Positions 146 through 53,941 of a stretch of DNA of 64,000 nucleotides are shown piece after piece. The stretch lies in contig VGXU01000001.1 of NCBI GenBank assembly GCA_016873215.1, positions 1 through 64,000 on the forward strand, in the 5' to 3' direction. A model generated the notes under the pieces. The model searched no databases, was not told the DNA's origin, and saw nothing but the letters and a program-made list of their open reading frames with translations. Position 1 is the stretch's first letter. Each line of letters begins with the position of its first letter. The DNA comes from Planctomycetota bacterium (GTDB lineage: Bacteria; Planctomycetota; Phycisphaerae; Sedimentisphaerales; Anaerohalosphaeraceae). Made by a program: the position numbers and the translations under genes.

Positions 146-1216
146 TTAGTCGAGATTTGCACGTGGTCCGTGATTTCGTGAACCATAGCCAGTGCCGATG
201 GTTCTGCCGATGGAGGCAATACGGGCGGCCAGGCATTCCTGGCATTGTTTGGCCGTTTCGTTCAGACAGGCTTTGCCGGGATAGATCTCGTACAGGGTAC
301 GGTATTGGACCGGCGTCACATTGGGCATCACGACATTGGCGCCGCGGGCCAGCCCTAATTCCCGCCCGCTTTCTTTATTCATTGTTGCCAGCGCCGTTGT
401 GCTGGGTATATTTGCCTGTGGGCACACCAGCCGAGTTAGAGCGACGACTTTGTAGGTCATTAATTCTGTATTCGGCACCTGCTTTTCGGGGGAAATATCG
501 GGTTTAATTTCCCCCCGCCCCAGTGGCGTCAGGGGATTGGCAATATATGGCCCAACACCGACCATATCCATATCGAATTGCCGAAAGAAATCAATATCCT
601 TTGCCAGTGTGGCATACGTTTGTCCGGGGATGCCGATCATAACACCGGAACCGGTTTCGTAGCCCAATAGCTTAAGTTGCCTGAGGATTTCAAAGCGGTC
701 GATTGCCTGCTTTGGAAGCGGAGGATGTATCATCTTATACAACTCGGTATCAGAGGTCTCAAATCGTAACAGGTAACGGTCCGCCCCGGCATCTCGCCAG
801 CGTTGTAAATCTTCAAAGGGACGTTCGCCCATGCTGAGTGTGACTGCGAGAGGCAGCTCTGTTTTAATGCGTTTAACAATATCGGCCAGCCAATCGGTTT
901 TGATGCCGTAGTCCTCGCCGGCCTGCATCACGACCGTGCCGTATCCATAACGTGCGGCCTCTTCGGCGCAGGCGAAGATTTCGTCAGCATTCATTCGGTA
1001 ACGGGTCGTTTTTTTGTTGTCCGCGGCAAGCCCGCAATAGGTGCATTGCCGGACACAATAATTGCTGATTTCGATTAGACCCCGCAGATGGACGGTATCA
1101 CCAACGTATTCTTTGCGAACGGCATCGGCGGCGAGCCAGAGCTGCTCCAGTTTTTGCTTATCTGTTTCGCGAAGCCATGTTTCAAGTTCTTTGATTGTCA
1201 CATTTTTATTTAGCAT
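146..1216 (-). CDS. hydE: [FeFe]-hydrogenase maturase HydE (radical SAM)
   Basis: HydE is a radical SAM enzyme that helps build the diiron subcluster of the [FeFe]-hydrogenase H-cluster. The protein is about 356 residues, normal for the family. The radical SAM cysteines are seen as CVRQCTYC (C-x3-C-x2-C) near residues 50-57, directly after the family-typical stretch VHLRGLIEISNY. A longer frame begins at 1261, but the ATG at 1216 gives the usual HydE N-terminus (MLNKNVTIKELETWL). This start overlaps the end of hydF by 11 bases, which suggests translational coupling. It is the last gene of hydG-aspartase-hydF-hydE. No strong Shine-Dalgarno is seen, consistent with coupling to hydF. Identity is secure; the exact start is less so. 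Confidence 0.95.
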   Translation of the reverse strand: MLNKNVTIKELETWLRETDKQKLEQLWLAADAVRKEYVGDTVHLRGLIEISNYCVRQCTYCGLAADNKKTTRYRMNADEIFACAEEAARYGYGTVVMQAGEDYGIKTDWLADIVKRIKTELPLAVTLSMGERPFEDLQRWRDAGADRYLLRFETSDTELYKMIHPPLPKQAIDRFEILRQLKLLGYETGSGVMIGIPGQTYATLAKDIDFFRQFDMDMVGVGPYIANPLTPLGRGEIKPDISPEKQVPNTELMTYKVVALTRLVCPQANIPSTTALATMNKESGRELGLARGANVVMPNVTPVQYRTLYEIYPGKACLNETAKQCQECLAARIASIGRTIGTGYGSRNHGPRANLD

Positions 1217-2420
1217 GTTTATGATACGCTTCCAGTGCGGCGGGGAAGGGTGATAATGCACGTTCGAAGATGCCTAAACTATAGGCAATAGTCAGGCCGT
1301 AATTGGTTATCGGCAGGCCGGCTTTTCGGCATTCGAGGATGCGCGAGAGCATTTGTCGGCGGTTCCACATGCAGCCGCCGCAATGAATGACTAATTTATA
1401 AGGCGACAGGTCTTCGGGCCAGTCGCGGCCGGGAAGTGTCGTAAAGTCGAGTTTGCCGCCGACATATTGCGTCAGCCAGCGGGGGATTTTGACCCTGCCG
1501 ATGTCTTCGCCGATGGGATGATGCGAGCAGGCCTCCGCAATCAGGACTTTGTCGCCGGGCTTGAGGCTTTCGATGGCCATGGCGCCGAGGGTCTGGGCGA
1601 CAAGGTCTCCTTTAAACCGTGCAAACAAAATCGAGAAGCTGGTCATGAGGATGTTTTTGGGCGTATCGGCAGCAACTTTCAGGAAGGCCTGCGAATCGGT
1701 GACGATTAATTTTGGCGGCTGTTTTAGATTTTCAATTGCGGAACGCAGTTCGCGCTCTTTAACGACCATACAGCAGGCATCGCCATCAAGCAGGTCGCGG
1801 ATAGTCTGTACCTGCGGCAGTATCAATCGGCCTTTGGGGGCTTCTTTGTCGATAGGGACTACAAGGATGGCCGTTTGGCCGGGACCCACGAGGTCGGAGA
1901 CGATGGACGGATTTTCTATAAAGTCCGCGGGGGCATTATCGAGAAGGGCCTGACGAAATTCAGCAATGCCTTTGTTTTCTTTGACGCTGGTCCGGACGAC
2001 GGCGACTTTTATGCCGTGCAGGTTGGCGGACTTTGCGATGTCTATTTTGTTGAATACGGCGATATAAGGAATCTTTAACTCGGTTAATTCTTTGGCGATT
2101 TTATCTTCGAAGTCCATCCATGGGCCGTCGGTGATGATAACGCCAAGGTCGGTACGTTCAAAGACCTTGCGGGTTTTGGCGATACGCAATTGACCCAGGG
2201 CGCCGACGTCGTCGATGCCGGCCGTGTCGATGAAGACCACCGGGCCCAGCGGCAGCAGTTCCATCGGTTTTTCGACCGGGTCTGTTGTGGTGCCGGCGAT
2301 GTCGGATACAATCGATACATCCTGGCCGACGACGGCGTTAAGCAGGCTCGATTTACCGACGTTGCGCCGACCGAACAGGCCGATGTGGAGACGTAAACTT
2401 TTTGGCGTCGATTGGGTCAT
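1206..2420 (-). CDS. hydF: [FeFe]-hydrogenase maturation GTPase HydF
   Basis: HydF is the scaffold GTPase that receives the diiron precursor made by HydE and HydG and delivers it to apo-HydA. The 404 residues match the family. The N-terminal G domain shows the P-loop GRRNVGKSS, the switch region DIAGTTTDP, the G3 motif DTAG and the G4 motif NKID. The C-terminal Fe-S domain shows CSHHP and HCGGC, the expected CxH...HCxxC ligand set. Its ATG overlaps the stop codon of the upstream aspartase gene (ATGA arrangement), and its own end overlaps hydE, so the three genes are almost certainly co-transcribed and coupled. Confidence 0.96.
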   Translation of the reverse strand: MTQSTPKSLRLHIGLFGRRNVGKSSLLNAVVGQDVSIVSDIAGTTTDPVEKPMELLPLGPVVFIDTAGIDDVGALGQLRIAKTRKVFERTDLGVIITDGPWMDFEDKIAKELTELKIPYIAVFNKIDIAKSANLHGIKVAVVRTSVKENKGIAEFRQALLDNAPADFIENPSIVSDLVGPGQTAILVVPIDKEAPKGRLILPQVQTIRDLLDGDACCMVVKERELRSAIENLKQPPKLIVTDSQAFLKVAADTPKNILMTSFSILFARFKGDLVAQTLGAMAIESLKPGDKVLIAEACSHHPIGEDIGRVKIPRWLTQYVGGKLDFTTLPGRDWPEDLSPYKLVIHCGGCMWNRRQMLSRILECRKAGLPITNYGLTIAYSLGIFERALSPFPAALEAYHKHAK

Positions 2421-3814
2421 GTTCTTTTATTTCCGAGACAACAGACGGATTGAGGGCTGATGAGAGCGTCGAAATCTGTCCGGGTCATAAGATTTTGTTC
2501 GAGAACCAGTTGACGAATGGTTTTACCGCTGGTGGCCGCGAGTTTGGCAATTTGGTCGCAACGCTCATAACCGAGTTTTTCAACCAGGGCAGTAACAGTC
2601 GCGGTGGCGTTTTCAACGGATTGCCTGCATTGAGCGCGGTTGGCAGCAAGGCCATTGATACAGAAGAGTTTTAAAATCTCGCAGGCGGTTGTGAGCAGTT
2701 CGATATTTTCCAGCAGGTTGGCCGCGATCAGCGGCATAAAGGCGTTGAGTTCGAGGCTTCCTGCGGAACAGGCCTGCGCGATAACGGTGTCGTTGCCCAT
2801 GACCTGCATGGCCGCCTCGCTGACGGATTCGGGGATGACCGGGTTAACTTTGCCGGGCATGATGGAAGAACCGGTTTGTCGCGGAGGCAGGGCGATTTCA
2901 CCCAGACCGCCGGTCGGGCCGCTCGATAACAGACGAAGGTCGCCGCAGATTTTTAGCAGAGATGTCGCGCAGGCTTTGAGGATGCCGGAGACTTCGACGA
3001 AGACATCGGTATTTTGTGTGGCTTCGACGAGATTTTCGGCGCGGGCCAGGCCAAGGCCGGTGATGTCGCGGAGGGTTTCAGTGACTTGGAAAATATAATC
3101 GCGCGGGGCCGCAAGGCCTGTGCCGATGGCGGTTCCGCCAAGATTAACGACGCGAAGCCGTTCGACGCATTTATATACACGCCAGCGGTCACGGTTGATC
3201 GCTTCGGCATAGGCAGCCATTTCACGGCCCAGCGTGGTCAGCGCAGCGTCCTGGTATTCTGTGCGGCCGATTTTGACGATGTCAGCAAATTCGCTTTCTT
3301 TGGATTGAAACGATTGCTGAAGTCCAACCAGTGCCAGTTCGAGTTTTTGAATCAGCCATATCGCCGCGATTCGCATGGCAGTCGGAAAAGTATCATTGGT
3401 GGATTGGCAGTGGTTGATGTCATCGAGCGGATGAATACGGTCGTACGCACCCAGAGGCAAACCGAAAATCTGCAATGCGCGGTTGGCGATCACTTCATTG
3501 ATATTCATGTTCAGACTAGTGCCGGCGCCGCCCTGGAATAAATCGACTTTAATATGCTGACTGAGACGGCCGTCGGCCATTTCCATCGCGGCATGCAGTA
3601 TGGCGGCGGCTTTGGGTTTGTTGTCGGACCAGTCACCGAGCGCTATGCAGGCCTGGATACAGGCCTGTTTGACGATTCCATAGGCTCGGACGAAAACATC
3701 CGGTACAGGACGAGAAGTAAAGGGGAAATTGGCCATAGCACGGGCGGTATGAATACCATAGAGCGCGTCAGCCGGAATTTCCATTTGTCCCAGAGAGTCG
3801 GTTTCTATTCGCAT
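2417..3814 (-). CDS. aspA: aspartate ammonia-lyase embedded in the hydrogenase maturation operon
   Basis: This fumarase/aspartase superfamily enzyme should convert L-aspartate to fumarate and ammonium. The 465 residues are full length. The signature loop is seen as GSSIMPGKVNP near residues 315-325, with other family blocks GGAGTSLNMN and STNDTFPTA. The gene lies 9 bases downstream of hydG and overlaps hydF by 4 bases, so it belongs to the maturation operon rather than to amino-acid catabolism. Aspartase-like genes occur beside hydEFG in other anaerobes, and ammonium is a plausible nitrogen source for the azadithiolate bridge of the H-cluster. That link is inference here. A fumarase or argininosuccinate-lyase activity is less likely from the motifs. 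Confidence 0.88.
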   Translation of the reverse strand: MRIETDSLGQMEIPADALYGIHTARAMANFPFTSRPVPDVFVRAYGIVKQACIQACIALGDWSDNKPKAAAILHAAMEMADGRLSQHIKVDLFQGGAGTSLNMNINEVIANRALQIFGLPLGAYDRIHPLDDINHCQSTNDTFPTAMRIAAIWLIQKLELALVGLQQSFQSKESEFADIVKIGRTEYQDAALTTLGREMAAYAEAINRDRWRVYKCVERLRVVNLGGTAIGTGLAAPRDYIFQVTETLRDITGLGLARAENLVEATQNTDVFVEVSGILKACATSLLKICGDLRLLSSGPTGGLGEIALPPRQTGSSIMPGKVNPVIPESVSEAAMQVMGNDTVIAQACSAGSLELNAFMPLIAANLLENIELLTTACEILKLFCINGLAANRAQCRQSVENATATVTALVEKLGYERCDQIAKLAATSGKTIRQLVLEQNLMTRTDFDALISPQSVCCLGNKRT

Positions 3815-3823
3815 GTGTTCATC

Positions 3824-5227
3824 TCAGCAATAGACGTCGTGTTTTCCGCTTTTTACCGCCGCCAGCATTTTTTCGCTGCGTTGACGCGGCTCATCATCCA
3901 TTTCTTTGACGACTTTGTCAATGAGCGACAAGCCGAGCTGTTTGGTTTTTTCAGAGGCGTAGTCCTGCAGGTATTCGAGAAACGTTGACAGGGCGTTTGG
4001 ATCGCAGTGTTCCTTGATCAGGCCGGGTTTGGCGAGGTCCATGAAATCTTTGCCCGTACGGCCGAGGCGGTAGCAACCTGTGCAGAAGGACGGGATATAT
4101 CCTAAATTCGTAACATCGTAAATGATCTCATCCAGCGGCCGATGGTCGCCAAGCGAGAATTGTGCTTCATCCTCGATACTTTCCCCTTCCGCATAGCCGC
4201 CCGGATTGGTCCGACTACCGGCGGATATTTGGGAAACACCCAGCGCAAACGTCTCACGCCGCATTTTAGGCGTCTCCCGCGTAGACATAATAATTCCGGT
4301 ATAAGGCACCGCCAAACGCAAAATCGCAACAATTTTGCGGAACTCTGTATCACTCACCGGTTGCGGCGGATGGATTGATATATCCGAACCGGTTGCGGGT
4401 TCCAAGCGAGGTACACTGATGGTATGCGGGCCAACGCCAAATTTGTTTTCGAGATGCTTGATGTGCTGCATCAGTGCCAGCATTTCAAAACGCCAGTCAC
4501 ACAGACCAAACAACACGCCGATGCCTACGTCATCAATTCCCGCTTCCATAGCGCGATCGATGGCAGTGACCCGCCAGTCGTAATCCATTTTTTTCCCGGC
4601 AACATGAACATTGGCATACGTCCGGCGATGATAGGTTTCCTGGAACAACTGATACGTACCGATATTCGCGGCTTTCAGTTGTTTGAATTCATCCCGTGTC
4701 AGCGGCGCGATGTTGACGTTGACCCGGCGAATTTCACCGTTCCCGGTTTTGGTGGCATAAATCGTATCCACGGCATCCAATATATATTGAAAACCTTGCC
4801 TTGGGTAAGATTCTCCGGCGACCAGCAATATGCGTTTATGGCCCTGTTTTTCGAGGATTTCGACTTCTGCGGCGATTTCCTTCTGTGTCAGAACGCGGCG
4901 TTTGACTTCTTTGTTTTTAGCACGAAAAGCACAATAAAGGCATTCATTTCCACAAAGGTTGGAGATATACAGAGGGGCAAAAACCACCATTCGCTTCCCA
5001 TAGATAATGTCCTTGATTTGCTTGGCCGTTTTATATAGCTCAGCTAACAACTCCGGGTCATTAACCGCGGTCAGAATCGAGATGTCGTCTGTGTCTAACC
5101 CCTTTAATTGCATTGCCTTAGAATAGATTCGGTGAACCTCGGCGGCATTCGGGGTGCTGGCTGTATTGCTAAGACGATTTTCAATAATCTCTTCGTTAAT
5201 AATATTTGAAAAAACCGTTTTTGTCAT
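3824..5227 (-). CDS. hydG: [FeFe]-hydrogenase maturase HydG (tyrosine lyase)
   Basis: HydG is a radical SAM enzyme that cleaves tyrosine to make the CO and CN ligands of the H-cluster. The protein is about 467 residues from the chosen ATG. The radical SAM cysteines are CGNECLYC, and the C-terminal auxiliary cluster ligands are visible as CTGC followed 22 residues later by a cysteine (C-x2-C-x22-C), the feature that separates HydG from ThiH. A longer frame opens at 5278. The ATG at 5227 has an AAAGG ribosome site seven bases upstream and gives a typical N-terminus (MTKTVFSNIINEE). This is the first gene of the maturation operon, divergent from rex. Confidence 0.96.
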   Translation of the reverse strand: MTKTVFSNIINEEIIENRLSNTASTPNAAEVHRIYSKAMQLKGLDTDDISILTAVNDPELLAELYKTAKQIKDIIYGKRMVVFAPLYISNLCGNECLYCAFRAKNKEVKRRVLTQKEIAAEVEILEKQGHKRILLVAGESYPRQGFQYILDAVDTIYATKTGNGEIRRVNVNIAPLTRDEFKQLKAANIGTYQLFQETYHRRTYANVHVAGKKMDYDWRVTAIDRAMEAGIDDVGIGVLFGLCDWRFEMLALMQHIKHLENKFGVGPHTISVPRLEPATGSDISIHPPQPVSDTEFRKIVAILRLAVPYTGIIMSTRETPKMRRETFALGVSQISAGSRTNPGGYAEGESIEDEAQFSLGDHRPLDEIIYDVTNLGYIPSFCTGCYRLGRTGKDFMDLAKPGLIKEHCDPNALSTFLEYLQDYASEKTKQLGLSLIDKVVKEMDDEPRQRSEKMLAAVKSGKHDVYC

Positions 5228-5431
5228 TTTATGACCTTTTCTGAGAAGTATTCTTAATTTATGGGACATTAAAAACAATAACCATGTCTAAATTTTTAAA
5301 TGACTTAAGTACTCTAAAGATTAATTGTACAAAGAAGTTCTATTAAATGCAACAAAAAGAACAATTAAAATTAAACAAAGTAGATTATATATGTATATTT
5401 TATTTTGTTGTGAAATAAAGAATAATAAATA

Positions 5432-5565: not shown

Positions 5566-6207
5566 ATGACCCTCAACAGAAGATGCATTATACGGATTTC
5601 GAGATATAAGAACGCCCTGAAGCGTCTTAAGGGGTTGGGTTTTGTGAAAGTTTTTTCCGGCAATCTTGCGGATGCCGCGGGCGTGACATCGTCGCAGGTT
5701 CGCAAGGATTTTTCTCTGTTCGGCATTACAGGCAATCGTCGAGGCGGCTACCACGTGAATGAATTGGTCGAACATATTGGGCGTATTCTGGGGAAAAATG
5801 AGCTTCAAAAAATAGTGATTGTCGGCATGGGCAACATCGGCAAGGCCCTGATGCGGTATCGTGGTTTTGAAGCCGGTGGAATTAAAGTGATAGCAGGGTT
5901 TGATATTGACCCGGCCAAGTATAGCAAGACGGCTGACACTCCGATTTTCCCGCTGGAGGATTTTCGGGAATTTGTGCATGCAAACGGCGTCAAAATTGCC
6001 ATCCTGTCGGTGCCGGATGTCGCGGCGCATCATGTATCGGAAGTGATGATTTCGGCGGGTATCAAAGGGATATTGAATTTTGCTCCGATTCAACTTCGCG
6101 GCGCTGAAGACGTGGTCATCAGCAGCATCAATCTGGAAGTGGAACTGGAGAACCTGATTTATTTTGTCAATGCGGGCGCCAAAACGAGGATAGATAGCGA
6201 GATATGA
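5566..6207 (+). CDS. rex: redox-sensing transcriptional repressor Rex
   Basis: Rex is a dimeric winged-helix repressor that senses the NADH/NAD+ ratio and commonly controls fermentation and hydrogenase genes. The 213 residues match the family. The N-terminal helix-turn-helix region contains SSQVRKDFSLFG, the hallmark of Rex, followed by the Rossmann NAD-binding motif GMGNIGKAL near residues 85-93. A GGAAG ribosome site lies about seven bases before the ATG. The stop codon overlaps the ATG of the histidine kinase gene (ATGA), so redox sensing and the two-component kinase are expressed together with the hydrogenase genes downstream. Confidence 0.95.
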   Translation: MTLNRRCIIRISRYKNALKRLKGLGFVKVFSGNLADAAGVTSSQVRKDFSLFGITGNRRGGYHVNELVEHIGRILGKNELQKIVIVGMGNIGKALMRYRGFEAGGIKVIAGFDIDPAKYSKTADTPIFPLEDFREFVHANGVKIAILSVPDVAAHHVSEVMISAGIKGILNFAPIQLRGAEDVVISSINLEVELENLIYFVNAGAKTRIDSEI

Positions 6208-8045
6208 AAACCCGCCGGTTAAAAAACAGGATTTTGCTGGGGTTCCTGGCGGTGATTTCCGTCCTGGGGGGCAGTATTTTTGCCCTTGGTTTCTATATGA
6301 TTAAGGAAGACATCTATGCCCGTGCCCAGCGGAGAGTGGGGAATTATATAGACAGCGCCAGAACGGTCTATGCCGGTGAAATTGAACGTATCGGCAATGC
6401 GCTGGAACTTGTCAACCTGCAGGATGATACTGAAACGCTGCGCGTGAAAATCAACCTTGATTACTTATATCGCATCGAAGTTTCCGAGGCGGCAGGCTGT
6501 CCCAGTGAAATTGTTCGCACCGCGGTGAAACGCGGAAAACCGGCTGGGGGTACACGGATCGCCGAATGGGCTGAAATAGCCCGAATGAGTCCGGAGGTTC
6601 AGTCCCGCAGCCGAATAACCATTTTGGTAACAGCCAAAGCGGGTCCCAGCAGCCGCAAAGAACTGGATTCGGCGATGGTCAAGGAATATGCCGTGCCGAT
6701 AAAAGATTCCGCCGGAAAAATGATTCAGGTGGTTTATGGTGGACGCGTCGCTAATCAGGATAATTATCTGGTGGACCGTATCCGCGACCTGGTTTTTGGC
6801 CAGGAAATGTATGAAAAATGGCCGGTAGGAACGGTGACGATTTTTCTGGACGACGTTCGAATCTGCACCAATGTTCTCGACGAAAACGGCAACCGGGCCA
6901 TTGGAACGCGGGTGTCTAAAGAAGTCTATCAGCAGGTAGTGAATAACGGTCAGCGCTGGCACGATCGGGCGTTCGTAGTCAACCGATGGTATATGACGGC
7001 TTATGAGCCGATCCGGAATATCAACGGTACGATTATCGGAATGCTGTATGTCGGGATGCTGGAATCGCCGTTTAACGCGCTGGCGGCTCGTGCGCTGGCG
7101 GCGTTTGTGGCGGTGGTTCTGCTGGCCAGCGCGGCGGCGTTTGTGTTTGCGATATGGCTGGCGGATTCGGTCAGCCGTCCGTTAATCAATCTGCTGGATG
7201 CGACAAAGAAGCTCAGCCGCGGAGAACTGGGCCATGAAGTGCAGACTCACGGAACGATTCTGGAAACCAATGAGTTGGCCGAATCGTTTAACGAAATGAG
7301 CATCAAACTGGAACAGCGGGAAGACCGTCTGAAAGTGACGAATGAGAAACTGGAAGATTTGAATAAGAGCTATCTCGATTTACTGGGTTTTGTGGCTCAC
7401 GAACTGAAGGGGATATTGTCTTCGACCATGATGAACGCCTATTCGCTTCACGACGGCTTTCTCGGAATGATTAATTTCAAGCAGAAAAGGGCAGTGGATT
7501 CCATTTGCCGGAATCTGGATTATCTGGCCGCGACGGTCAAGAAGTTTTTGAACTTGAGCCGGATTGAACGGGGCAATCTCGAAATCAATAAGACGTATTT
7601 CAATTTACGGGATGGCATATTTGAGCCGGCGGTACAGACGTTTATCAAACAAATCAGCGACCGGGGAATGAAACTGATCAACGAGATGGACCCGGCGATG
7701 CGTGTGCATGCTGACCAGGATTTGATGCAGATCGTGGCCAACAATCTGATTAACAACGCGGCCAAGTACGGCAGCGACAGCGGCAAAATCATCCTGCGCA
7801 GCCGACAGGATGATAAAATGGCGACAGTGGAAGTATATAACGACGGACGTCCAATTACATCTGAGCAGATGGCGAAGCTGTTTAAGAAATTCTCGCGGCT
7901 GGACGTGCCGGAGAAAAAACAAGTCAAAGGGACGGGACTGGGATTATATATTACCCGCCAGATTGTCGAAAGCCACGGCGGTTCGATCCGTGTGGAACCG
8001 AAAGAAAACGGGAACTCATTTATATTTACCATAGAAAGGGGATAA
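6204..8045 (+). CDS. membrane sensor histidine kinase (Cache-HAMP-HisKA-HATPase)
   Basis: The 613-residue protein has an N-terminal membrane helix (about residues 10-32), an extracytoplasmic Cache-type sensor region ending near FLDDVRICTNV and YMTAYEPI, a second membrane helix (about 288-315), a HAMP segment starting at SRPLINLLDATK, and a kinase core. The phosphoacceptor box is FVAHELKGIL, an unusual variant of the HELRTPL type. The ATP-binding domain shows NNLINNAAKYG and KGTGLGLYI. It overlaps rex and precedes the hydrogenase genes, so it probably reports an extracellular signal relevant to hydrogen or electron flow. The receiver protein at 12777-13160 at the end of the cluster is the likely partner. 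The ligand cannot be read from the sequence. Confidence 0.9.
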   Translation: MKTRRLKNRILLGFLAVISVLGGSIFALGFYMIKEDIYARAQRRVGNYIDSARTVYAGEIERIGNALELVNLQDDTETLRVKINLDYLYRIEVSEAAGCPSEIVRTAVKRGKPAGGTRIAEWAEIARMSPEVQSRSRITILVTAKAGPSSRKELDSAMVKEYAVPIKDSAGKMIQVVYGGRVANQDNYLVDRIRDLVFGQEMYEKWPVGTVTIFLDDVRICTNVLDENGNRAIGTRVSKEVYQQVVNNGQRWHDRAFVVNRWYMTAYEPIRNINGTIIGMLYVGMLESPFNALAARALAAFVAVVLLASAAAFVFAIWLADSVSRPLINLLDATKKLSRGELGHEVQTHGTILETNELAESFNEMSIKLEQREDRLKVTNEKLEDLNKSYLDLLGFVAHELKGILSSTMMNAYSLHDGFLGMINFKQKRAVDSICRNLDYLAATVKKFLNLSRIERGNLEINKTYFNLRDGIFEPAVQTFIKQISDRGMKLINEMDPAMRVHADQDLMQIVANNLINNAAKYGSDSGKIILRSRQDDKMATVEVYNDGRPITSEQMAKLFKKFSRLDVPEKKQVKGTGLGLYITRQIVESHGGSIRVEPKENGNSFIFTIERG

Positions 8046-8048
8046 ATC

Positions 8049-8402
8049 GTGGTGACGCCATTAGACATTATCAAGAAAAAACGTGCCCAGGCGGTGGCGC
8101 GGATTATCAGCAAAGGCTACCTGTCAACCAAGCGGGTCTATGTAGGGATGGCGACCTGCGAAATTGCCGCCGGGTCCAAAGACGTGATGGACATTTTTCG
8201 TCAGGCTGTGGCCAACGGCCTGACGGAGGTGTATCTGAGCCAGAAGGGCTGTGCCGGGCGGTGCAATCTCGAACCGACGGTGGAAGTGGTGGAAGAAGGT
8301 AAAATTCCGTACAAATACGGCAAGGTGACGCCGCAGAAAGCCCGCGATATCATCGAACGGCATCTGAAGAAAGGCGAAGTGATTCGGGAGTGGCTGATAT
8401 AA
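8049..8402 (+). CDS. thioredoxin-like [2Fe-2S] ferredoxin of the hydrogenase cluster
   Basis: This 117-residue protein resembles the small thioredoxin-fold [2Fe-2S] subunit found with NAD(P)-linked [FeFe] hydrogenases (HndB-like). Cysteines are visible in MATCEIAAGS and KGCAGRC. The start is a GTG at 8049 with GAAAGGGG upstream, overlapping the end of the kinase gene region by only a few bases of spacing. It sits between the kinase and the NuoF-like subunit, so it is probably an additional electron-transfer subunit or partner of the hydrogenase. Its exact electron partner is inferred from position only. Confidence 0.8.
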   Translation: MVTPLDIIKKKRAQAVARIISKGYLSTKRVYVGMATCEIAAGSKDVMDIFRQAVANGLTEVYLSQKGCAGRCNLEPTVEVVEEGKIPYKYGKVTPQKARDIIERHLKKGEVIREWLI

Positions 8403-8519
8403 AGTAAAAAGGCAAAAGGTAAAAGTAAAAATGTTTTACCTGAGATGGGATTTCAAAATACCGAAACGAAAAACAGTGGAAACATTCATTTCGGGATGAG
8501 AATAGAAAGGAAAGCAACG

Positions 8520-10313
8520 GTGCCTGAAGTTCATTATAAAATTACATTATGTGACGGAACGAGTTGTATTCGCAAGCAATCCAAGCAGATTCATCAGATT
8601 CTCGATCAGGAACTAAGGAAGCGGAATCTGAAAGAGGTGGTGAGCGTTCATCTGAGCGGCTGTCTGGGGATGTGTGCCAAGGGACCGATTCTGATTATTA
8701 ATCCGGGCTATGTGATGTACGGCAATATCACGGAGGCCGACATTCCGGAAATTGTGGAATCGCATTTGGTCCACGATACGCCGGTCGCCCGGCTGATGGT
8801 GGAAGAAAATCACCTGTATAATCGCTTCTTCCGTATTTTCGGCGACGTGGATTTCTTCGGCAAACAGATGCGTATTACGCTTCGCAACTGCGGCATTATT
8901 GATCCGGAAAATATCGACGATTATCTGTCTGTTCGCGGCTATGAAGCGCTGGCCAAGGTGCTGACGGATATGAAGCCTGAACAGGTGGTTTCCGAGGTCA
9001 AGAAAAGCGGCCTTCGCGGTCGCGGCGGCGCGGGATTCCCGACGGGAATGAAATGGGAGTTCACCGCCAAACAGCCGGCGGGGGAGAAATACGTGATATG
9101 CAATGCCGACGAAGGCGACCCGGGAGCATTTATGGACCGCAGCGCCATCGAGGGCGACCCCCATACCGTTCTGGAAGGAATGATTATCGGCGGTTACGCG
9201 GTGGGTTCCAGTCGGGGGGTTGTCTATATCCGGGCGGAGTATCCGCTGGCGATCAAGCGTCTGGAGAAGGCCATCGCCGCGGCGCGGGAACACGGCTTTT
9301 TGGGACAGAATATCCTCGGGTCTAATTTTTCGTTTGATATTGAAATTCGTCTTGGCGCAGGCGCCTTTGTCTGCGGCGAGGAGACGGCCCTGATTCATTC
9401 GATTGAAGGCTCTCGCGGAATGCCGAGGCCCCGGCCTCCATTCCCGGCCGTCAGTGGTCTGTTCGGCAGGCCAACGCTGATTAATAACGTCGAGACGTGG
9501 GCGAATATCCCCGTGATAATTCTTGACGGCGGCGAATGGTTCTCCGGCATCGGCACGCAGGGCAGCAAAGGCACAAAAGTGTTCGCGCTGGCCGGCAAGG
9601 TTCGCAATACGGGGCTTGTGGAAGTGCCAATGGGGACGACGCTGCGGGAAATCGTGTTTGATATCGGCGGCGGTATTCCCAATGGGCGCAAATTCAAGGC
9701 GGTGCAAACCGGCGGTCCCAGCGGCGGATGTCTTCCGGAGCCGTATCTCGATACACCGATTGATTATGAATCACTGGCCAAGGCCGGTTCGATTATGGGT
9801 TCCGGCGGGATGATTGTCATTGATGAAGATTCCTGCATGGTCAATATCGCCAGGTTCTTCATTGAATTTACGCAGAGCGAATCCTGCGGCAAATGTGCTC
9901 CGTGCCGGGAAGGCACCCGACGAATGCTGGAGATTCTGACCCGCATTACCGAGGGCAAAGGCTGTCCGGAGGATATCGACAAGCTCGAACGGCTGGGTGC
10001 GATGATTAAGAAATCCTCGCTGTGCGGTCTGGGCCAGTCGGCGCCAAACCCGATACTCAGTACAATCAAAAATTTCCGTGAGGAATATGAAGAGCATGTC
10101 AATCAGAAGAAATGCCGGGCCGGTGTTTGTGCGGCGATGCTCAGCTATACCATTAACGATAATTGCGTGGGGTGCGGTGCGTGCAAGCGGGCCTGCCCGG
10201 TCAATGCCATCGACGGCACTCGCAAGGAAAAGCACCATATCGACCCGAACAAGTGTATTAAATGCGGACAATGTTATTCCGTTTGTAAATTCAGTGCGGT
10301 TGCCAAAGCATAG
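8520..10313 (+). CDS. hydB: NADH-binding flavoprotein subunit of trimeric [FeFe] hydrogenase (HydB/NuoF-like)
   Basis: This subunit carries FMN and NADH sites and links NAD+/NADH to the hydrogenase. About 597 residues are expected from the GTG at 8520, which has AAAGGAAAG upstream; a longer in-frame extension to 8445 has a poor N-terminus. Domains in order: N-terminal thioredoxin-like [2Fe-2S] domain (CDGTSC and SGCLGMC), NuoF domain with the FMN/NADH loop GRGGAGFPTGMKW, the [4Fe-4S] motif SCGKCAPCREGT, and a C-terminal 2[4Fe-4S] ferredoxin (CVGCGACKRACP and CIKCGQCYSVCK). The architecture matches HydB of electron-bifurcating hydrogenases. It is followed immediately by hydA. Confidence 0.94.
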   Translation: MPEVHYKITLCDGTSCIRKQSKQIHQILDQELRKRNLKEVVSVHLSGCLGMCAKGPILIINPGYVMYGNITEADIPEIVESHLVHDTPVARLMVEENHLYNRFFRIFGDVDFFGKQMRITLRNCGIIDPENIDDYLSVRGYEALAKVLTDMKPEQVVSEVKKSGLRGRGGAGFPTGMKWEFTAKQPAGEKYVICNADEGDPGAFMDRSAIEGDPHTVLEGMIIGGYAVGSSRGVVYIRAEYPLAIKRLEKAIAAAREHGFLGQNILGSNFSFDIEIRLGAGAFVCGEETALIHSIEGSRGMPRPRPPFPAVSGLFGRPTLINNVETWANIPVIILDGGEWFSGIGTQGSKGTKVFALAGKVRNTGLVEVPMGTTLREIVFDIGGGIPNGRKFKAVQTGGPSGGCLPEPYLDTPIDYESLAKAGSIMGSGGMIVIDEDSCMVNIARFFIEFTQSESCGKCAPCREGTRRMLEILTRITEGKGCPEDIDKLERLGAMIKKSSLCGLGQSAPNPILSTIKNFREEYEEHVNQKKCRAGVCAAMLSYTINDNCVGCGACKRACPVNAIDGTRKEKHHIDPNKCIKCGQCYSVCKFSAVAKA

Positions 10314-10333: not shown

Positions 10334-12106
10334 ATGGACAAAAAGATTACCATTTACATTAACAGCAAAGAATACAAAGTATCGCCGAACCAGACGATTA
10401 TGCAGGCGGCGGACCATTTGGGATTTCATATTCCGCGTCTGTGTTATCACCCGAAGCTGTCGATTGAGGGCGCCTGCCGGGTGTGTATTGTCGAGGTGGA
10501 GGGCATGCGGAATTTTGTCGCATCCTGTGCCTACCCGGTCAGCGACGGAATGAAAATTCACACCAATACCCAGGAATTGCGGCGTGCCCGTCGGGATATT
10601 GTCGAACTGCTGGTGGATAATCATCCGATGGACTGTCATACCTGCGAACGGGACGGCAACTGTGAACTGCAACGGCTGGCTTCTTCGATGGGCATTCGCG
10701 CCCGGCATTTTGTCGGCCAGCGCAAACAGTACGGCAGGGATTTGTCCGGCCAGGCGGTCATCCGAGACCCGGACAAGTGTATCTTGTGCGGACGGTGCGT
10801 GCGGATGTGTTCGGAAATCCAGCAGGTGCATAACCTGACGCAGGCGCATCGCGGTTTCGATACGGTGGTGATGCCGGCGTACAATATGCCGATGGCCGAA
10901 AGCGTCTGTACCGCCTGCGGGCAGTGCATCAATGTCTGTCCGACCGCAGCGTTCCTCGAAAAGAATTATACGCAGGAATTGTTTGAAAAGCTCAACGACC
11001 CGAACCTGATTAAAGTGGCGCAGTTCGCGCCGTCGGTTCGTGCGGCTATCGGCGAGGCATTTGGACTGGAAGCAGGGCATAATATGGAAGGCCAGCTTGT
11101 CGCGGCCCTGCGGAAGCTCGGATTTAATTATGTGTTCGACACGCAGTTCTCAGCAGACTTGACGATTATGGAAGAGGCGACGGAATTTCTCGAGCGCATC
11201 CAGAATAAGGGCAAGCTGCCGATGATTACCTCATGTTCGAGCGCCTGGATGAAGTGCATGGAGCAGTTTTATCCGGACCTGATTGAGAACATCTCGACCT
11301 GCAAGTCTCCGATGTCGATGCAGAGTGCATTAGCCAAGACCTTTTTCGCCCAGAAAATCGGTGTTGATCCGAAGAAAATTTTCAGTGTTGCGGCGATGTG
11401 CTGCACAGCCAAGAAATATGAAGCCGCACGGCCTGAACTGGACGTGGAAGGAATGCGGGCAACCGATATTGTGGTGACTACCCGTGAAATCGCATGGATG
11501 ATCAAATCAGCGGGCATTGATTTTCTGAATATCGAACCCGAAACCCAAGACCATCCCATCGGGATGTCCAGCGGCGCCGGCGTGATTTTCGGCACCACCG
11601 GCGGCGTGATGGAAGCATCCATCCGCACCGCCTACGAGCTTTATACCGGACAAACACTGGTGGATATCGAAGTCGAATCCATTCGCGGTCTTAAAGGCAT
11701 CAAAGAAGGTAAAGTGGTGATGGACGGCCAGGAAATTCGCGTCGCCGTGGCACATGGCTTAGGCAACGCCTGCAAACTGCTTGACGTTGTGCGCAAAGAC
11801 CCCGGCCGGTATCATTTTGTGGAGATCATGGGCTGTCCTGGCGGATGTGTTGGCGGTGGCGGGCAGCCTTATGCCGGCGTTAACTCCATTCCGCTGGATG
11901 AGGATGCACTGATGAAACGTGCCGAGGCGCTGTACAGCATCGACCGGGCCAAGACCATTCGACGCAGCTACGACAACCCGGATATCCAGAAACTCTATAA
12001 AGAATACTTGCAGCGGCCCGGAAGTCCGATTGCTCATAAACTGCTGCATACGCATTACAAACAGAAATTCCCCCAGGGAATTATCCCAAAAGAGGCTCTT
12101 AAATAA
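10334..12106 (+). CDS. hydA: [FeFe] hydrogenase catalytic subunit HydA, with altered L1/L2 motifs
   Basis: This is the H-cluster subunit that reduces protons or oxidises H2. From the ATG at 10334 it has 590 residues. It contains an N-terminal [2Fe-2S] domain (near CRVC), a His-Cys [4Fe-4S] motif (HPMDCHTCERDGNC), two ferredoxin-type clusters (CILCGRCVRMC, CTACGQCINVCP), the H-domain, and a C-terminal small-subunit-like tail (SYDNPDIQKLYKEYL). The H-cluster motifs are TSCSSAW (C301), MCCTAKKYE (C356-C357) and EIMGCPGGCVGGGGQP (C501, C505). Compared with the standard TSCCPxW and MPCxxKxxE, the second L1 cysteine is serine and the L2 proline is cysteine. HydB and HydC neighbours indicate a trimeric NAD- and ferredoxin-coupled enzyme. 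Confidence 0.95.
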   Translation: MDKKITIYINSKEYKVSPNQTIMQAADHLGFHIPRLCYHPKLSIEGACRVCIVEVEGMRNFVASCAYPVSDGMKIHTNTQELRRARRDIVELLVDNHPMDCHTCERDGNCELQRLASSMGIRARHFVGQRKQYGRDLSGQAVIRDPDKCILCGRCVRMCSEIQQVHNLTQAHRGFDTVVMPAYNMPMAESVCTACGQCINVCPTAAFLEKNYTQELFEKLNDPNLIKVAQFAPSVRAAIGEAFGLEAGHNMEGQLVAALRKLGFNYVFDTQFSADLTIMEEATEFLERIQNKGKLPMITSCSSAWMKCMEQFYPDLIENISTCKSPMSMQSALAKTFFAQKIGVDPKKIFSVAAMCCTAKKYEAARPELDVEGMRATDIVVTTREIAWMIKSAGIDFLNIEPETQDHPIGMSSGAGVIFGTTGGVMEASIRTAYELYTGQTLVDIEVESIRGLKGIKEGKVVMDGQEIRVAVAHGLGNACKLLDVVRKDPGRYHFVEIMGCPGGCVGGGGQPYAGVNSIPLDEDALMKRAEALYSIDRAKTIRRSYDNPDIQKLYKEYLQRPGSPIAHKLLHTHYKQKFPQGIIPKEALK

Positions 12107-12120
12107 AGCGGAGAACGACA

Positions 12121-12618
12121 ATGGTGGAAATGGCACAGGAAAAAATGGACGAACTCAGGACGTTTATCGCGGCCTGCATGCAGAAAGAATATTCGGATTC
12201 GTATCTTATCGCGGTTCTGCACAAGGCGCAGGAATTATTTGGTTATTTGCCCGTCGAGGTGATGGACGAGGTGGCCCAGAGAATGAATATCCCCACCGCC
12301 CACCTCTGGGGCGTGGCGACGTTTTATCATTATTTTAATCTCAAGCCCATTGGCAAATACGTCATCAGCGTCTGTCTCGGCACGGCCTGTTATGTCAAGG
12401 GAGCTACGGAAGTGCTGGAAGCAATTAAACGGGAATTGGGTGTAGAGATTGGCCAAACAACCGCGGATAATTTATTCACGCTGCATGAAGCAAGATGTCT
12501 GGGCGCCTGCGGCATTGCGCCGGTTATTATGATTAACGACAAGATATATGGAGAATTGGACGCCAAAAAAGTCGTGGCGCTGATTAACCAGTACCGCAAG
12601 ACCGCTCAAGTAGCGTGA
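12121..12618 (+). CDS. hydC: NuoE-like [2Fe-2S] subunit of trimeric [FeFe] hydrogenase (HydC)
   Basis: This 165-residue NuoE-like thioredoxin-fold protein carries one [2Fe-2S] cluster. The ligand motifs are CLGTAC and CLGACG, and the family block GVATFYHYFNL precedes them. A GGAGAACG ribosome site lies just before the ATG. It starts 14 bases after hydA and completes the HydABC set (catalytic HydA, flavoprotein HydB, small HydC), the arrangement known from bifurcating hydrogenases. In those enzymes the complex couples exergonic oxidation of reduced ferredoxin to NADH oxidation during H2 formation, or the reverse. Confidence 0.94.
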   Translation: MVEMAQEKMDELRTFIAACMQKEYSDSYLIAVLHKAQELFGYLPVEVMDEVAQRMNIPTAHLWGVATFYHYFNLKPIGKYVISVCLGTACYVKGATEVLEAIKRELGVEIGQTTADNLFTLHEARCLGACGIAPVIMINDKIYGELDAKKVVALINQYRKTAQVA

Positions 12619-52907: not shown

Positions 52908-53903
52908 ATGTTTGTTGATGAAGTTCAAATTCGAGTCAAGGCCGGAGACGGCGGCGGCGGCTGCGCGAGCTTTCGGCGGGAAAAATTTATTCCCAAAGGC
53001 GGCCCGGATGGCGGCGATGGCGGCTGCGGCGGCAGTGTTTATTTTGTCGTTGACCCGTCACGCGATACTTTGCTGGATTTTTCGGGCAAGCATGACTGGA
53101 TTGCAAAAAATGGCCGGCCCGGCGAAGGCAAAAAAAAGTTTGGCCCCGACGGCGAGGATTTGATTATCCCCGTTCCGCTTGGCACATTAGTTTATGACCT
53201 GAAGCGCGATATTTTGATAAAAGATATGAATGAAGCGGGGATGAAAATCTGTATCTGTCGGGGCGGTCGTGGCGGGTGGGGCAATGTGCATTTCGCAACG
53301 TCGAGGCGACAGACGCCGCGATTTGCCGGGCGGGGCAAGCCCGGCCAGGAGCGAGACCTTCGGCTGGAACTCAAGCTGATGGCCGATGCCGGACTGGTAG
53401 GGATGCCCAATGCGGGGAAGAGTACACTGCTGAGCCGTTGTTCCAAAGCGCGTCCCAAAATTGCCAATTATCCTTTTACGACGCTCAGCCCCGTGCTGGG
53501 GATTGTGGAACTGTCCGGGCTTCGACGGTTTGTGATGGCGGATTTGCCGGGTCTGATCGAAGGGGCACATTCAGGCGCCGGGCTTGGATACGAATTTCTG
53601 CGTCATATTGAGCGGACACGAATACTGGTGCATTTGGTGGATATCCTGCCCGTGGACGGCTCAAGGCCGATGGACAATTATAAAAAAATCCGCAATGAGC
53701 TTAAATGGTACAGTCCGGCGCTGATTCGCAAGCCGGAATTGATTGTGCTGAACAAGGCTGACCTGGATGGGGACGGGGAGCTTGTTAACGCGATTAAAAA
53801 GAAACTAAAGGGCAAAAAAGTGATGGTGATTTCCGCCGTGTCGGGTCAGGGGCTGGATGAACTGAAGGAGAAGCTGTGGGAGATGATACAGAAGAAGAAA
53901 TAA
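52908..53903 (+). CDS. obgE: Obg-family GTPase
   Basis: ObgE is an essential GTPase in 50S ribosome assembly and stress control. The 331 residues show the glycine-rich Obg fold (residues 1-158, with KAGDGGGGCASFRREK and GPDGGDGG), then the G domain: GMPNAGKSTLLS, switch FTTLSPVLG, DLPGLIEG and NKADLDGD. There is no C-terminal OCT extension, as in shorter members. It opens a run obgE-coaX-mnmE-like. Confidence 0.95.
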   Translation: MFVDEVQIRVKAGDGGGGCASFRREKFIPKGGPDGGDGGCGGSVYFVVDPSRDTLLDFSGKHDWIAKNGRPGEGKKKFGPDGEDLIIPVPLGTLVYDLKRDILIKDMNEAGMKICICRGGRGGWGNVHFATSRRQTPRFAGRGKPGQERDLRLELKLMADAGLVGMPNAGKSTLLSRCSKARPKIANYPFTTLSPVLGIVELSGLRRFVMADLPGLIEGAHSGAGLGYEFLRHIERTRILVHLVDILPVDGSRPMDNYKKIRNELKWYSPALIRKPELIVLNKADLDGDGELVNAIKKKLKGKKVMVISAVSGQGLDELKEKLWEMIQKKK

Positions 53904-53941
53904 AAGGGAAACCTTAAAACAGTTTTTATGCGGATGGCACG

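Follow-up and report, generated by a model that had tools for sequence, protein, structure and literature searches.

The catalytic subunit HydA of the [FeFe] hydrogenase encoded in the window, a 64,000-nucleotide stretch of contig VGXU01000001.1 from a Planctomycetota bacterium (GCA_016873215.1), carries an active-site variant that is real, conserved and ordinary for its clade. A serine, Ser302, occupies the position of one cysteine ligand of the [4Fe-4S]H subcluster, and Cys356 belongs to a second-shell residue set that is lineage-specific and common to a multi-phylum clade. The reading we favour, with a probability of about 0.6, is that of a working NAD(H)/ferredoxin-linked group A6 HydABC, in which serine at the ligand position and the clade-specific second shell tune redox potential and catalytic bias.

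The HydABC locus

HydA matched NF040763, the model for group A6 NADH-dependent [FeFe] hydrogenases, over its full length with 828.6 bits (curated cut-off 765). The open reading frame encodes 590 aa from the ATG at 10334, with a GTG at 10313 as an alternative upstream start. Its domains (Fer2_4, NADH-G_4Fe-4S_3, Fer4, Fe_hyd_lg_C and Fe_hyd_SSU) form a layout of NuoG-like N-terminal Fe-S domains, an H-cluster domain and a small-subunit tail. The gene is adjoined by hydB, with an FMN/NADH domain and a full Fe-S set, and by hydC, the neighbours by which group A6 is recognised; residues 32-622 of HydB align to Acetobacterium woodii HydB (E 5e-250), and inspection of that alignment by eye shows conserved cluster cysteines. 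The nearest solved relatives of HydA are HydA1 of Thermoanaerobacter kivui and A. woodii. An AlphaFold model of HydA from a 30-row alignment, built without cofactor, reached pLDDT 86 and pTM 0.86 (pLDDT 38 for a single-sequence prediction) and superposed on the T. kivui and A. woodii proteins with a TM score of 0.93 and on CpI, the monomeric Clostridium pasteurianum HydA I, with approximately 0.92.

The original prediction of a full HydABC catalytic subunit with complete maturation genes alongside is borne out, as hydB, hydC, hydE, hydF and hydG were all found (table 1). HydA is the sole protein with the H-cluster domain PF02906 in the assembly (2.69 Mb, 99.9% complete). No other client of the HydEFG maturases is thus apparent, which argues for a functional H-cluster, and the sequence indicates that HydA is probably functional. 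On the plus strand the order is Rex, Cache histidine kinase, ferredoxin-like protein, hydB, hydA, hydC and response regulator; the genes at 5566-8402 lead straight into hydBAC, which suggests NADH-responsive control and a single transcription unit. A search for Rex operators gave overall counts near chance. The interval separating hydC from the response regulator gene contains one Rex-like palindrome with a single mismatch. The lyase gene sits inside the maturation cluster, flanked by hydF and hydG, and overlaps hydF by 4 bases.

Table 1. Features of the hydrogenase locus and other positions in the window discussed in the text.
Feature	Position	Strand	Basis
hydE, H-cluster radical SAM maturase	146-1261	-	TIGR03956, 325 bits, above cut-off; Radical_SAM
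hydF, H-cluster maturation GTPase	1206-2420	-	TIGR03918, 554.5 bits, above cut-off; HydF dimer and tetramer domains
Aspartase/fumarase-superfamily lyase gene	2417-3814	-	Lyase_1, E 3e-80
hydG, H-cluster radical SAM maturase	3824-5278	-	TIGR03955, 540 bits
Rex-family NAD(H)-sensing repressor gene	5566-6207	+	NF003996, 218.7 bits
sCache/HAMP sensor histidine kinase gene	6204-8045	+	Pfam sCache_3_3, HAMP, HATPase_c
Small thioredoxin-like [2Fe-2S] ferredoxin-like protein, 117 aa	8049-8402	+	Weak NF041612 match, below cut-off; no Pfam match
hydB, FMN/NADH and Fe-S subunit	8445-10313	+	Alignment to A. woodii HydB
hydA, [FeFe]-hydrogenase catalytic subunit, group A6	10334-12106	+	NF040763
L1 motif TSCSSAW, HydA residues 299-305	11228-11248	+	Alignment to CpI
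L2 motif MCCTAKKYE, HydA residues 355-363	11396-11422	+	Alignment to CpI
L3 motif MGCPGGCVGGGGQP	11828-11869	+	Alignment to CpI
hydC, NuoE-like [2Fe-2S] subunit	12121-12618	+	NuoE/HoxE models; 2Fe-2S_thioredx, E 1e-51
Rex-like palindrome TTGTGAAATTTTGTACAA	12654-12671		1 mismatch
Weak HydF-GTPase-like match	53388-53909	+	Interrupted by a TAA stop

H-cluster motifs of HydA

Measured against the prototypical set TSCCPxW/MPCxxKxxE/ExMxCxxGCxxG, HydA departs at the second L1 cysteine (Ser302) and the L2 proline (Cys356). The motifs TSCSSAW and MCCTAKKYE are present as first described, with Ser302 and Cys356 correctly numbered, and relative to CpI (TSCCPGW/MPCTSKKFE) L1 does lack one cysteine and L2 has an additional one. 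Alignment to CpI, in which L1 reads T297-S298-C299-C300-P301-G302-W303 and L2 begins M353-P354-C355, equates Cys301 with C299, Ser302 with C300, Ser303 with P301 and Ala304 with G302. In L2, Cys356 is an extra cysteine at P354 and Cys357 is the retained ligand C355; in L3, the ligands C499 and C503 are kept as Cys501 and Cys505, and Gly500 replaces A498. The length of loop L1 and the flanking T297 and W303 are invariant in the sequence alignment.

In the crystal structure of CpI the [4Fe-4S]H ligands are C300, C355, C499 and C503, and C300 is the counterpart of C223 in CpIII (C. pasteurianum HydA III). In CpIII the cysteine directly preceding the proline, C223, is a [4Fe-4S] ligand (PMC12138974). 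The proton relay of CpI is C299, described as non-coordinating (PMC10055695), and the C299S variant has less than 1% activity (PMC6226526), so it matters which of the two roles is affected. Ser302 had been taken for the lost relay cysteine, a mapping that was off by one residue: the relay is the first L1 cysteine, kept as Cys301, and the second is the cluster ligand. HydA shares three of the four ligand cysteines with CpI and all four residues of the proton path (C299, E279, S319 and E282 in CpI numbering), and also keeps CpI M353, M497, K358, F417, A230 and P231. Across sequences with both serine at 300 and MCC, CpI positions A230, P231, E279, E282, C299, S319, P324, M353, K358, F417 and M497, and likewise the ligand positions 355, 499 and 503, are conserved in 89 of 89.

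Serine at the ligand position has precedent. A. woodii HydA1 (HydABC; PDB 7q4v, 7q4w and 8a5e), a group A6 protein with 44% identity to HydA over the structural alignment and a closely similar HydB partner, has the L1 motif TSCSPGW, with serine at the C300 position and, like HydA, a cysteine at CpI 321; it differs in having MPC in L2, P and G at CpI 301 and 302, and A232, Q325 and A498 where HydA has S, M and G. A. woodii HydABC is an isolated, characterised and physiologically used bifurcating enzyme (PMC6288185). Serine was also reported in 2024 as common at this position, the fifth of the P1 motif xTSCxPxWx, in four of five sub-types of Hydrogenedentota BfuA, which differ from HydA in keeping the P1 proline and a P2 motif xxMPCxAKK, with no description of SSA and MCC (PMC11406978), and TSCSPGW has been noted in Melainabacteria (PMC3787301). 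The HydA proteins of Thermotoga maritima and T. kivui (7p5h and 8a6t) share the fold (TM 0.88-0.93) and trimeric architecture, but retain the ligand cysteine (TSCCPAW/TSCCPSW) and MPC. CpIII, a group B enzyme with TSCCCP, likewise departs naturally from TSCCP and has an additional cysteine near the cluster, although there the extra residue lies inside L1 and the ligand cysteine is kept (PMC12138974). The literature searched, with the A. woodii structure paper outside it, contained no statement equating the serine site with the [4Fe-4S]H ligand position.

Distribution and evolution of the motif forms

TSCSSAW and MCCTAKKYE are identical in 20 of the 21 host-family orthologues with readable motifs, so they reflect neither sequencing error nor chance; the exception (G287, 76% identity) has TSCSPGW and MPCTAKKYE. 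When 84,980 species genomes were scanned with MCCxxKK[YF]E, at least 105 HydA frames matched, a lower bound on a sequence sample enriched by the search pattern. Among the matches listed, HydA frames came from Planctomycetota (41), Omnitrophota (23), Elusimicrobiota (13), Armatimonadota (11), Auribacterota (3), Spirochaetota (2), Raymondiibacteriota, Sumerlaeota and Bacillota (1 each) and genomes with no phylum (9), along with 10 further frames that were not HydA. MCC is thus present in at least eight named phyla besides that of the host. Its L1 partner is nearly always TSCS[SA]xW, and TSCSSAW itself in 85 of the 105 HydA frames among the matches listed. The original prediction presented the motif forms as unusual, a view that it would have given up had they proved standard among the HydA proteins of trimeric hydrogenases from related bacteria; they are standard there. 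A literature search for TSCSSAW/MCCTAKK returned no match.

All four combinations of the two sites occur: TSCC/MPC, TSCS/MPC, TSCC/MCC and TSCS/MCC. In the Bacillota sample, TSCSPGW with MPC far outnumbers every other form. TSCC/MCC is represented by 13 Armatimonadota sequences with TSCCPTW, mostly paired with MCCTC. Six Armatimonadota sequences (L079, L081, L083, L150, L158 and L159) combine TSCCPTW with MCCTCKK, keeping the ligand cysteine and having two extra cysteines in L2.

CpI position 300 is serine in 187 and cysteine in 56 of the 243 HydA sequences of a trimmed set, and no other residue occurs; some of these sequences had been selected by the MCC pattern, and family searches free of that pattern likewise returned only cysteine or serine. 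Serine is the more frequent state in group A6, and the second L1 cysteine is accordingly not a defining feature of the group. The state at position 300 changed approximately 11 times on a 129-row tree, never to Ala, Gly or Thr. Position 498, by contrast, accommodates five residues (A, C, T, G and S). The restriction to cysteine and serine is the best sequence argument that the serine still does the ligand's job.

The MCC enzymes fall within a clade marked by Met at CpI 325 (support 100), inside which Cys354 underwent approximately five changes. We use the name MCC sub-clade of group A6 for sequences with C354, S232 and M325 within this supported clade; S232 and M325 accompany MCC in 100 of 100 sequences, and HydA, with all three residues, belongs to it. 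The second-shell set of HydA comprises Ser234, Met327, Cys356 and Gly500, usually joined in the clade by S/A303 and A304. This sub-clade and its coherent signature appear to be undescribed, as judged from the literature searched. Four sequences nested in the MCC clade (L026, L307, L310 and L019) have MPC and Ala at CpI 232, three of them also with Ala at 498, looking like a concerted reversion of scattered pocket residues.

The idea of a cysteine swap, one lost and one gained together, is not supported by this comparison. MPC and MCC accompany serine at 300 about equally often, the ligand cysteine is intact in some MCC sequences, and in independent pairs Cys354 and Ser300 changed the same way in 0.5 and the opposite way in 0.4, showing no association. 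The tree thus shows no coupling between the Cys-to-Ser change and the gain of Cys356. Independent-pairs tests of C354 against S300, P301, 302, 232, 498 and 321, with 4-7 usable pairs each, gave no significant result for any of the six positions; C354 trended positively with S232, G498 and non-P301, on only four usable pairs, too few to count as more than a trend. A. woodii and HydA also raised the idea that a cysteine at CpI 321 (STCKSP) compensates for the lost ligand. As a general rule this was rejected: Cys321 is frequent in Cys300 sequences too, and among the 29 Ser300 sequences without Cys321, 20 have Cys354 and nine, all with MPC, have neither. These nine indicate that a compensating cysteine at those sites is unnecessary. 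Taken together, the coupling data suggest that the place of the lost ligand is taken by Ser302 itself or left as an open iron site, and that Cys356 belongs to a separate second-shell remodelling.

Proposed mechanism and alternatives

Most likely, judging from the conservation pattern, Ser302 ligates the iron through its oxygen or the iron is left bound to water or hydroxide; in the latter case the serine might be only a second-shell residue beside an open, water- or hydroxide-bound iron. H2 would be split at the [2Fe] site and protons would leave via Cys301-Glu-Ser-Glu, as the full conservation of this path implies. Electrons would pass through [4Fe-4S]H, held by Cys357, Cys501, Cys505 and probably Ser302, and then along the HydA relay to HydB/HydC, NAD+ and ferredoxin, a route suggested by homology to structurally solved HydABC; the complex would then bifurcate electrons between NAD+ and ferredoxin. 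The potential of the [4Fe-4S]H subcluster contributes to the bias of [FeFe] hydrogenases. Serine-for-cysteine ligation together with S234, M327, C356 and G500 would be expected to shift both, so that what the pocket residues probably adjust is the [4Fe-4S]H potential and the catalytic bias, and not proton transfer. Exchange of a cysteine ligand of [4Fe-4S]H for histidine shifts bias (PMC11376134), and in HydS a serine close to this subcluster alters its potential by 50 mV (PMC10055695).

Other readings of the motifs are possible. The loss of one cysteine and gain of another beside a ligand, and the 20 Ser300 sequences that have Cys354 in place of Cys321, could mean that Cys356 (or Cys323, at CpI 321) has taken over from C300 to maintain an all-cysteine [4Fe-4S]H of altered geometry. 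This is unlikely, given the 13 TSCCPTW sequences that combine MCC with Cys300, the equal frequency of Ser300 with MPC, the uncoupling in independent pairs and the nine sequences with neither cysteine; the adjacent residues 356 and 357 would, moreover, both need to ligate one cube. Somewhat less likely again is a slip in register, whereby Cys301 would serve as the cluster ligand and a serine (300 or 302) as the relay, so that loss of the relay cysteine would be functionally true after all. L1 is left with a single cysteine, and a one-cysteine deletion in TSCCCP of CpIII is functional, if much weakened, so the loop tolerates change (PMC12138974), but the loop length, T297 and W303 are invariant, and the near-complete inactivity of CpI C299S (PMC6226526) is hard to square with the physiological use of TSCS-bearing A. 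woodii HydABC (PMC6288185).

Several departures from the textbook motifs might also be expected of a degenerating, weak or non-catalytic HydA, an explanation made very improbable by the fixation of the motifs across multiple phyla, the retention of every catalytic residue and the presence of a complete HydEFG set with HydA as its sole client. Least probable of all is an H2-sensor-like role in place of catalysis. Second-shell residues are altered here, as they are in sensory enzymes, but it is C299, M353 and M497 that sensory (HydS) enzymes alter (PMC10055695), and HydA keeps all three as C301, M355 and M499, with its gene placed beside hydB and hydC.

Identifying the first L1 cysteine as the proton relay corrects the reading of Ser302, and motif filters that require TSCCPxW and MPC would throw out real hydrogenases. 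Most sampled members of the bifurcating family appear to have substituted the ligand position naturally, and one clade shows additional remodelling of the pocket. The forms TSCC/MPC, TSCS/MPC, TSCC/MCC and TSCS/MCC provide a ready series for asking whether a serine-ligated cluster and a second-shell cysteine shift the balance between H2, NAD and ferredoxin.
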